From NCBI RefSeq assembly GCF_003001995.1, contig NZ_PVNB01000010.1, forward strand, positions 1 through 64,000: a stretch of DNA of 64,000 bases, read 5' to 3'. Shown here piece after piece: positions 1 through 13,273 of the stretch (the first letter of the stretch is position 1; each line of letters starts with the position of its first letter). This DNA comes from Orenia metallireducens. GTDB lineage: Bacteria > Bacillota > Halanaerobiia > Halobacteroidales > Halobacteroidaceae. The notes beneath the pieces were generated by a model. That model ran no database searches. It was not told the DNA's origin and worked only from the letters and a program-made list of their open reading frames with translations. The translations under genes and the position numbers were made by a program.

Positions 1-178
1 AGAGCATAATTAAAATTAATAAGGGCTTATGTTAGATATAGAAAAAATCAGGGATAGGTATATCTATGAGACGTCGTGAAACTCTGATACGTTAAATTAA
101 TAAGGGCTTATGTTAGATATAGAAAAAATCAGGGATAGGTATATCTATGAGACGTCGTGAAACTCTGATACGTTATGC
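1..178 (+). other. attC site, 5' part outside window, 3' half duplicated
   Basis: The R' box GTTATGC lies at 172-178 and the L' arm (GACGTCGTGAAACTCTGATAC) just before it, in the same arrangement as the complete attC sites downstream. The R'' and L'' arms are not inside the window. The 3' half is present twice in tandem, so a second R'-like GTTAAAT occurs at 91-97. It marks the start of the first complete cassette. Confidence 0.75.
13..174 (+). repeat. 81-bp tandem duplication of an attC 3' half
   Basis: Positions 13-93 and 94-174 are identical, an exact 81-bp direct duplication. The unit runs from the central spacer through the L' arm to the start of R'. It is probably a replication or recombination slip inside an attC site and not a functional second site, because only one set of left arms could exist. 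Confidence 0.95.
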
Positions 179-1620: not shown

Positions 1621-1751
1621 GCATAACATGAGATTAGCAACATCCCAATTGAGGTGTATAAATGAAGGTTTGGCTGACTTATGTGAGACTTAGAGTTTAT
1701 ATAAGAATATGAGCATTGGCGGGGACGTCGCGAATCTCAGGGACGTTATGC
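1621..1751 (+). other. attC recombination site 1
   Basis: R'' GCATAAC (1621-1627) is the exact complement of R' GTTATGC (1745-1751). The L arms GAGATTAGC and GCGAATCTC pair, followed inward by ACATCCC against GGGACGT. The length is 131 bp. The orientation is that of a cassette whose gene is on the + strand. Confidence 0.9.
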
Positions 1752-1780
1752 AAAATTAAGGCACTAGGGAGAGTGGTAAA

Positions 1781-6263: not shown

Positions 6264-6394
6264 GTATAACATCAGCTTAACGACATCCCAGCTATGAGGA
6301 TTAATCAAAGTTGGGGCTGACTTATGTAAGATTGTAGCTTTATTAAAGATTGAGGGTATTAACTGGGACGTCGCGAAGCTGAGGGACGTTAGGT
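6264..6394 (+). other. attC recombination site 4
   Basis: R'' GTATAAC (6264-6270), R' GTTAGGT (6388-6394), L arms CAGCTTAAC and GCGAAGCTG. The length is 131 bp. The R' fits the classical GTTRRRY consensus. Confidence 0.9.
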
Positions 6395-6427
6395 GAAATG
6401 CTACTTTGCTTGAAAGGAGAGATTATT

Positions 6428-9606: not shown

Positions 9607-9738
9607 ACATAACAGCACCTTAGCGACATCCCAGTCATGAGCATAAATAAAGAGTCGGGGCTGACTTATCTAAGACTTAAAGTTTATTTGAAATTAGGAG
9701 CATTAAAGGGGACGTCGCGAAACTCAGGGACGTTATAT
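9607..9738 (+). other. attC recombination site 7
   Basis: R'' ACATAAC (9607-9613), R' GTTATAT (9732-9738), outer arms CACCTTAGCGACATCCC against GGGGACGTCGCGAAACTC. The length is 132 bp. It returns to the local attC family after the foreign site 6. Confidence 0.88.
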
Positions 9739-9786
9739 GACATAAATAAACTAGTGCTTAGCTTTAATGAAAGGAGCTTGAGAATA

Positions 9787-11028: not shown

Positions 11029-11069
11029 TTTTTCGACGTTTATTTACATCATATAACATGAGATTAGCG

Positions 11070-13113
11070 GTACGTCCTGGCAGGGTATATATTCTAGTGA
11101 GTGTGAATCTCATCAGAGTAAAGGTTAGCCACCAGCTCTGTATCGAGTCTTGGAGGGATTGCGGTAACGTAATCCTTTAAGTGTAGACAGAAAGTTAGCA
11201 AGGTAGAATCGACTGAATTGGTTTGTCAGCGGTGGATGGTTTTATCACGAAGTGGTTTTTAAATTTTAAAACCCGTAGGAATTGTATTGAGCTCCGAAAA
11301 CGATGCAACTGAGAAGGGTCGAAGCTGTCGCTAAAGTGGAAGACAGAATTTAATTATGCGTAAAAGGGCAAGTATAATTAGACATCTCCGGAGTCTAAGG
11401 CACTACCTCGCTAAACATTAAGAATATATAGAAACCCAGGGAGATCCTATCTGGTCTCTCCGCAAGGAGAGTATGCCCGATGAGCTGAAGAGGTGAAGAA
11501 GGCAAAAGCCAATAGGAAGTCGGATACTCTCATAGTACCAAAGAAACTGGGTAATTCTAGTGGAGGGAAGGAGTAGTAACAGATGAAACTGCAAGCAAGG
11601 GACACATCTATCGGACACAGAACCGAAGAAGGGGTGAGAACAAAACTTGTTCGCATAGCACAAAGAGCGAAAAGAGACAAAGCAGCAAAATTTTGCTCAT
11701 TAAGCCATTTGCTTTACAAGAGCACATTAATAGAAGCCTTTTGGAGACTTTCTCCAAAAGCAGCTCCAGGAGTAGATGGTAAAAGTAAAGAAAGTTATGC
11801 AGAAAATTTAGAAGAAAATATTACAGACTTATACAGCAGACTTAAAAGTAACTCTTTTATGCCTAATCCAGTAAAACGTAAATATATAAAGAAGATAGGC
11901 AGTAATAAAATGCGACCTCTTGGTATACCTGCAATAGAGGATAAGATAGTCCAGACAGCCTTAGTAATTATCTTAGAAAATATTTATGAACAAGATTTTC
12001 TACCATTCTCTTATGGATTTCGTCCTAATAGAAACTGTCATGATGCCTTAAAGAATCTAAGCAGAGACATAGGAACAAAGAAAGTTGGATATATCATAGA
12101 TGCAGACATCAAAGGATTCTTTGATAACGTAAATCATGAATGGCTGGGAAAATTTCTTCAGCATAGAATAAATGATAGTAAAATATTAAGGCTAGTTAAA
12201 AGATTTCTAAAAGCAGGAATATTAGAAGAAGGCAACTATTACGAAAGTAAAAGAGGTGTTCCCCAAGGTGGAACTTTATCTCCATTATTAGCAAATATCT
12301 ATCTTCACTATACTATCGACTTATGGTTTGATAGAGTAGTTACTAAATCCTGTAAAGGAGAAGCATATATTACAAGATATGCTGATGATATAGTATTCTG
12401 CTTCCAATATAAATCCGATGCTCAAAAGTTCTATTCTTCATTAAAAGATAGACTTAATAAATTTGATTTAAAACTATCAGAAGATAAGAGCAAGATGATA
12501 GAATTTGGGAGATTTGCTCAAAGAGATGCTAAGCGAAGAGGAGAAACCAAAGCAGAAACCTTTGATTTTTTGGGATTTACCCATTATTGCAGTAAAAGCC
12601 GGAGGGGAAGGTTTAAGCTTAAATGGAAGATAGCACGAAAGACATTTACCGTTAAGGTAAATGAATTTGGTGAATGGATTAAGGAAAATAGACACTTAGC
12701 AATAGATGAAATATGGAGAAAAGTAAATCAGAAATTAAGAGGACATTATCAATATTATGGAGTAAGTGATAACTGGAAAGGGTTAGAGAACTATAAAAGA
12801 GAAGTGATAAAACTACTGTATAAATGGCTTAATAGAAGAAGCCAACGAAACAGCATAACTTGGGAAGAATTAAGACAATTAATTAAAGTCTTCCCATTGG
12901 CAGAACCAAAGGTTAAGGTAAATCTTAATTCGGCTTTTGTGTAAAGAGGTTCATTTGGGGAGCCGTATGCTTAAATTGGGCACGTACGGTTCTGAGAGGG
13001 GTATACATCAACTTAATAAGGAGCAAATATTGTGACACTCATAGACGAAAGGGTGAGCAAACGGGGAAAACAAAGGGATTCCTAAGTTTAGAAGATGTAT
13101 ATATCTACTTACC
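11070..13113 (+). mobile_element. group II intron inserted in an attC site
   Basis: The 5' end GTACGTCCTGGCAGGGT at 11070 fits the group II start pattern. Domain V is clear at 12960-12992: GAGCCGTATGC pairs with GCACGTACGGTTC. Between them lies a reverse transcriptase/maturase gene. Downstream of domain V a long-range stem, GTATACATC (13001-13009) with GATGTATAT (13094-13102), encloses ~85 nt, so domain VI is unusually long. The 3' end is at 13112 or 13113; alignment with intact attC sites leaves a 1-nt ambiguity. Excision would restore a full attC. The intron lies in the same orientation as the cassette genes. Confidence 0.88.
11583..12944 (+). CDS. ltrA: group II intron reverse transcriptase/maturase
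   Basis: This 453-residue protein starts at ATG 11583, preceded by GGAAGGAG. RT motifs are in order: KMRPLGIPAIEDKIVQ, FSYGFRPNRNCHDAL, DADIKGFFDNVNHEWL, GVPQGGTLSPLLANIYL, and the catalytic RYADDIVFC (YADD box, about residue 262). A maturase domain X follows, with LRGHYQYYGVSDNW and KWLNRRSQ. There is no C-terminal HNH endonuclease, so mobility probably uses structured or single-stranded targets. It splices and mobilises the host intron (11070-13113). The exact intron class cannot be assigned by eye. The frame is intact. Confidence 0.95.
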   Translation: MKLQARDTSIGHRTEEGVRTKLVRIAQRAKRDKAAKFCSLSHLLYKSTLIEAFWRLSPKAAPGVDGKSKESYAENLEENITDLYSRLKSNSFMPNPVKRKYIKKIGSNKMRPLGIPAIEDKIVQTALVIILENIYEQDFLPFSYGFRPNRNCHDALKNLSRDIGTKKVGYIIDADIKGFFDNVNHEWLGKFLQHRINDSKILRLVKRFLKAGILEEGNYYESKRGVPQGGTLSPLLANIYLHYTIDLWFDRVVTKSCKGEAYITRYADDIVFCFQYKSDAQKFYSSLKDRLNKFDLKLSEDKSKMIEFGRFAQRDAKRRGETKAETFDFLGFTHYCSKSRRGRFKLKWKIARKTFTVKVNEFGEWIKENRHLAIDEIWRKVNQKLRGHYQYYGVSDNWKGLENYKREVIKLLYKWLNRRSQRNSITWEELRQLIKVFPLAEPKVKVNLNSAFV

Positions 13114-13273
13114 ACATCACAGCTATGAGGATGAATCAAAGTCGTGGATGACTTATATAGGATTGTATTTTTATTAGAATTGGGAGTATTAACTGGGACG
13201 TCGCGAAGCTGAGGGACGTTATCTGACATATGCCAAATGGTAATTTTTTCTAAATCGAGAAGGAGAATAATTA

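Follow-up and report, generated by a model that had tools for sequence, protein, structure and literature searches.

Targeting of integron attC sites by group II introns has so far been mainly a trait of group IIC introns, which read a folded DNA hairpin and lie antisense; these IIC-attC introns use a short IBS1, with a stem-loop in place of IBS2. Mobile group II introns are bounded by the consensus GUGYG...AY and carry a branch-point A in domain 6 (D6), 7-8 nt from the 3′ end. IIC-attC introns insert at R″ (TTGT/T; here and below a slash marks a junction) in the bottom strand, opposite to the cassettes (PMC7923331). Sonbol and Siam (2021; PMC7923331) describe a single CL1/IIB1 intron just after an attC and in the same orientation as the cassettes, as well as class E introns in truncated form, and they cite an IIC intron of Enterobacter cloacae that likewise has the cassette orientation. 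This closest open paper contains no description of base-pairing insertion at L″. Integrons in Firmicutes as such are already known (PMC8618304); in the open-access literature, no paper was found linking Halanaerobi- names with integron and attC, and the sole paper naming both integron and Acetohalobium is on Rh50 permeases.

The window, the whole 64,000-nt stretch of Orenia metallireducens DNA analysed here, is one contig of a 4.1 Mb genome in 95 contigs. A 2,044-nt group II intron at 11070-13113 (+) splits an attC of this window between L″ and the ACATC box (TTAGCG/ACATC) and has the orientation of the cassette genes. It very probably belongs to a retrohoming group II lineage, here termed A, which is set apart from the IIC-attC introns by position, strand and pairing and whose regular target would be the top strand of attC. 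Lineage A and the group IIC-attC introns (S.ma.I2 and relatives) both specialise on attC, but the latter use the folded bottom strand at R″, lie antisense and have no EBS2, whereas lineage A uses the top strand at L″/ACATC, lies sense and has a long EBS1 and an EBS2 candidate (PMC7923331; PMC8876359). The CL1/IIB1 intron UHB.I2 from the Tanatar-5 soda lake is non-IIC, as lineage A probably is, and similarly endonuclease-less, in cassette orientation and from a hypersaline habitat, but it is a single case just past an attC with exons that are not conserved, whereas the 11 copies of lineage A share one fixed position within attC (PMC7923331). The Enterobacter cloacae intron, as cited there, lies sense in an attC like lineage A but is of class IIC and a single case. 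The orientation that the original prediction had set against that of IIC-attC introns holds, although with these precedents it is not entirely new (PMC7923331).

Limits and parts of the intron

The first 19 kb of the window are a cassette array with typical attC sites, and further attC sites of the same genome lie on contigs C18, C47, and C58. The R″-L″-L′-R′ architecture between single-gene cassettes is found at 29-32 distinct sites, with arm pairing far above that of shuffled arms. At the contig start (window 68-175), an attC-like right half occurs twice in tandem with an 81-nt period. Tyrosine recombinases whose C-terminus resembles that of IntI reach 213-252 bits on TIGR02249, for which the cut-off is 265; the match falls into two stretches and leaves out profile positions ∼180-234. 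These recombinases (L116 1177-2343, L119 1204-2244, and L033 174-1217) have an extra N-terminal part, and the IntI-like genes of L116 and L119 are followed downstream by an attC in the same orientation. The features of the interrupted site are as follows:

11047-11069 (+): 5′ exon, attC R″ box CATCATATAAC and L″ arm ATGAGATTAGCG (= IBS2 + IBS1), read from the sequence in a layout common to 11 copies
11070-13113 (+): group II intron GUACG...CUACUUACC, 2044 nt, delimited by Rfam, the Halonatronum copy, the empty attC core and the D6 ends of related introns
11106-11113 (+): EBS2 candidate AATCTCAT, complementary to ATGAGATT in L″ of the 5′ exon
11328-11334 (+): EBS1 candidate with the preceding base, UCGCUAA, complementary to TTAGCG/A and identical in the window, L040, L167, and L168
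11583-12944 (+): intron-encoded protein, 453 aa, reverse transcriptase (RT; YADD) and maturase X domain, from the open reading frame and profile matches
12960-12993 (+): domain 5 (D5), 34 nt, AGC-type triad, from Rfam and fold (z = -4.2)
12994-13113 (+): D6, bulged A seven bases before the 3′ end in the predicted fold, tip enlarged by a ∼70-nt segment
13114-13228 (+): 3′ exon, ACATC box, central part, L′ arm GCGAAGCTGAG and R′ box GTTATCTGACAT, read from the sequence

The 5′ exon ends in ...ATGAGATTAGCG at 11069 (in longer form, ...TAACATGAGATTAGCG followed by GTACGTCC), the intron runs from GTACGTCC to CTACTTACC, and the 3′ exon begins at 13114 with ACATCACAGC. The proposed group II intron between L″ and ACATC of an attC is borne out by its RT reading frame, by the restored core and by Rfam matches to D1-D4 (RF02005 at 11104-11403, E 3.5e-36) and D5 (RF00029 at 12958-13017, E 1.5e-4, above the gathering score). 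Removal of the intron in silico gives TTAGCG/ACATC, and the same core (TTAGCGAC) occurs in 18 of 32 intron-free attCs among the fetched sequences. Related introns stop at the homologous D6 base (CTACTCGAC/), which supports the 3′ limit at 13113; an alternative 3′ end, CTTAC/CACATC, was ruled out on this ground and because its extra base is present in no empty attC. The intron ends are GUACG...ACC in the window and GUGCG...ACC in Halonatronum, both departing from the consensus, and deviant ends have been reported for UHB.I2 as well (PMC7923331).

D5 and D6 have canonical predicted folds, but the ∼70 nt at the D6 tip are not present in the Halonatronum copy, and the window copy could be impaired by them. 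A segment of ∼70-90 nt (ATTGTGACACTCATAGACGAAAGGGTGAGCAAACGG...CTAAGTT; window 13016-13095, L018 9170-9255, L091, and L171) occurs in D6 of introns of lineage A and of a second family, B, and also within the 5′ portion of introns from a third family, which is associated with terminators; the segment is not in the Halonatronum A or B copies and matches no Rfam family beyond the intron itself. D1 contains a short palindromic repeat (CACGAAG-GGTTTT...AAAACC-CGTAGG, window 11237-11278), which is scattered elsewhere in this and related genomes (L008, L014, L015, L016, and L156). D1 matches on contigs C14, C48, C17, and C7 were rejected as further introns since they correspond to this repeat.

The RT reading frame is intact, retains the YADD motif and scores 364 bits on TIGR04416 (cut-off 300); among Pfam profiles, RVT_1 is clear and GIIM scores 22.1, slightly below its cut-off of 23. 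A profile search of the 453-aa protein found no endonuclease domain. The nearest solved RT is LtrA (171 bits), followed by GsI-IIC (148 bits). In the RT tree, the window and Halonatronum proteins form their own branch, neighboured by an RT from a Magnetococcales MAG with no attC in its 3′ flank. RTs at ∼50% identity belong to introns at unrelated insertion sites wherever these could be checked, and attC homing is thus probably a trait of the window/Halonatronum branch. The plasmids searched gave no close RT, all matches being <60% identical.

Predicted pairing with the L″ arm and copies in the order

EBS1 and EBS2 are candidates with positions read from the sequence. UCGCUAA complements the last six exon bases and the first base of the 3′ exon (TTAGCGA, present in 18/32 empty attCs) and is unchanged in all four copies that retain the region; the U preceding EBS1 could pair with the A of the 3′ exon in an IIA-like manner. 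The L″ arm of the window is a perfect complement of the EBS2 candidate, which is matched by only 3/32 empty attCs with wobble allowed. The EBS2 stretch differs from copy to copy and frequently matches the local target badly, so that target choice probably depends chiefly on the conserved core.

The closest copy (L040, from NZ_KI912097.1) is in Halonatronum saccharophilum, a member of the same family as the organism of the window, and its RT and DNA are 81% and 83% identical, respectively, to those of the window intron. This intron of the same lineage has the same insertion point in attC, orientation, EBS1 and EBS2, but it lies in a different attC with well-paired arms (4 Watson-Crick pairs and 1 wobble), lacks the D6 insert and is accompanied by the 5′ part of a family B intron in R′ of the same attC. 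The intron thus needs no mismatched arms. When the first 512 nt of the intron were searched against 13 genomes of the order, the total of copies or relics came to eleven, spread over seven genomes and six genera and counting those of the window and Halonatronum. All eleven 5′ junctions are TTAG[CT]G/ in the left half of an attC and on the cassette strand, so that the same point has been targeted repeatedly and independently. The R″ box precedes the junction in nearly all copies (degenerate in L175 and slightly altered in others); in a twelfth fragment (L173), the junction is unrecognisable. The whole insertion point within attC is kept in the window and Halonatronum copies only, and the remaining copies are mostly truncated, without a reading frame or fused to family B. 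Across the remaining 46 genomes of the class, every match was shorter than 60 nt, and viral contigs gave no match to the exact junction pattern.

In the proposed mechanism, the intron RNA would read the L″ arm: EBS1 and its preceding base (UCGCUAA) would pair with the conserved core TTAGCG/A, and a looser pairing would join EBS2 to the variable part of L″. By reverse splicing, the intron would then enter at the L″/ACATC boundary, invariably in the orientation of the cassettes; the sequence predicted as target for the Halonatronum intron is TTAGCGACATC. As the protein has no endonuclease domain, single-stranded attC DNA would probably be needed, at a replication fork or on the strand left open by bottom-strand folding. 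The sense orientation means that the intron may splice out of cassette transcripts, and its presence may affect the excision and mobility of cassettes.

Unequal arms of the interrupted attC

The following intron-free sites bear on the origin of the interrupted attC:

1622-1755 (+): attC "site 1", five variable L″ bases identical to those of the intron site
6270-6398 (+): attC "site 4", nearest relative of the 3′ exon half
9609-9745 (+): neighbouring intron-free attC, arms pairing at 1/5, below the intron site (mismatched arms GCACC versus TGAGT)

The original prediction read the intron site as two halves of different attCs with poorly pairing L arms. Its literal resemblances stand: the variable L″ bases (TGAGA) are those of site 1, and site 4 is the best match to the right half. 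Of the variable bases, 3/5 pair, with no wobble pairs, which is in the lower tail but inside the range of 29 intron-free attCs. Pairing between L″ and L′ at the five variable bases of these 29 sites is 5/5 in 13, 4/5 in 10, 3/5 in five and 1/5 in one; with wobble pairs counted, 3/29 are at or below the intron site, and the empty neighbour (9609-9736) is the worst of the set, with 1/5, or 2/5 with wobble. In predictions of the bottom-strand fold of the joined attC, several intact sites also failed to give the canonical fold at the cut points used. The uneven arms appear to fall within the normal variation among attCs, perhaps accentuated by the match to EBS2, and the resemblance of the left arm to ATGAGATT has another reason in its perfect complementarity to the EBS2 candidate.

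As a refinement of the main explanation, the left arm may have been adjusted by exon co-conversion, in which homing would have given it the exon of the donor, or by drift after insertion to a perfect EBS2 fit that would favour splicing, at the cost of L″/L′ pairing. The rarity of such a fit among empty attCs and the identical EBS2 of Halonatronum speak for this adjustment, but EBS2 fits poorly in other copies, and a simple match to a pre-existing TGAGA arm would appear identical in one genome; the adjustment is possible, if rather unlikely.

Recombination between introns in neighbouring attCs, joining a left and a right half and deleting or swapping the cassettes between them, is improbable. 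The likeness of the left arm to site 1 and of the right half to site 4 agrees with such an event, and the A/B hybrids of relatives described below indicate that rearrangement between introns in attC arrays occurs. However, the RT of the window is single in its genome, where the search for other copies yielded no second intron of type A and no reciprocal product, and the arm mismatch is equalled or exceeded at intron-free attCs, the outcome that the original prediction had itself named as speaking against it. When both halves of the intron site were aligned to seven local sites, the left part had 19 matches and 5 mismatches to site 4 and the right part 95 and 16, with no significant difference between the two (Fisher p = 0.53); against site 1, the values were 20/4 and 75/35 (p = 0.21). 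Both tests have low power, since most of the left arm is common to all attCs.

That an unspecialised intron landed by chance in a single attC, as its one intact copy in the genome would allow, is extremely unlikely: TTAG[CT]G within an attC precedes all eleven insertions, across six genera, and EBS1 is complementary to the attC core. Membership in the group IIC-attC introns, suggested by nothing beyond the location in an attC, was excluded on position, strand, orientation and pairing and has next to no probability: the intron lies at L″/ACATC on the top strand and sense, not at R″ on the bottom strand and antisense, the complementarity between EBS1 and the junction spans 7 nt and the EBS2 candidate 8 nt where a short IBS1 and a stem-loop would be expected, its D5 is of the AGC type, and its RT is closer to LtrA than to GsI-IIC.

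Family B and the remodelling of attC arrays

A second intron family, B, has an RT ∼35% identical to that of the window intron and matches the D1-D4 model RF02003. In 6/8 distinct 5′ ends, the first intron base comes directly after GGGACGTT in the R′ box of an attC; at the 3′ end, the intron in most cases adjoins the beginning of a cassette, for example ATGTGAAA. Loci of this family (L094, L105, L183, L195, L213, and L040 5588-5731) read ...GGGACGTT/G(T/C)ATGTCCAGCG... in sense orientation. A further intron type at L095, L103, and L112 (GTGCGACCAGCC... in L112) begins a few bases downstream of the R′ box (GACGTTATGTGACA/GTGCG), in cassette orientation.

One attC of Halonatronum (L040 3460-5731) houses both an A intron and the 5′ part of a B intron. 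In two other genomes (G002 and G001), A/B hybrids have the 5′ end of A at L″ and the 3′ end of B at R′, with the right half of the attC missing, which is the structure expected to be left by a deletion between A and B introns of one attC; such hybrids are seen at L171 (two copies), L167, and L168. This arrangement indicates that introns remodel attC arrays in relatives, although not demonstrably in the window; the partners are introns of different families, and the site is lost in the process.

Under the preferred reading of a lineage A that regularly targets the top strand of attC, a different kind of intron would read the same recombination site as the IIC-attC introns but on the other strand and by base-pairing, sit sense and be transcribed with the cassettes, a convergent specialisation on one recombination site. 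Lineage A would provide natural guide sequences for attC, and the proposed link between intron and cassette formation is directly testable in culturable organisms such as Halonatronum. More tentatively, and with somewhat less than even confidence, attC may be a shared landing zone for at least two non-IIC-attC intron families (A at L″ and B at the R′ box), both sense, whose mutual rearrangement would lead to intron-containing recombination sites and remodelled arrays; if so, integron cassettes would evolve in part under the regular influence of introns.
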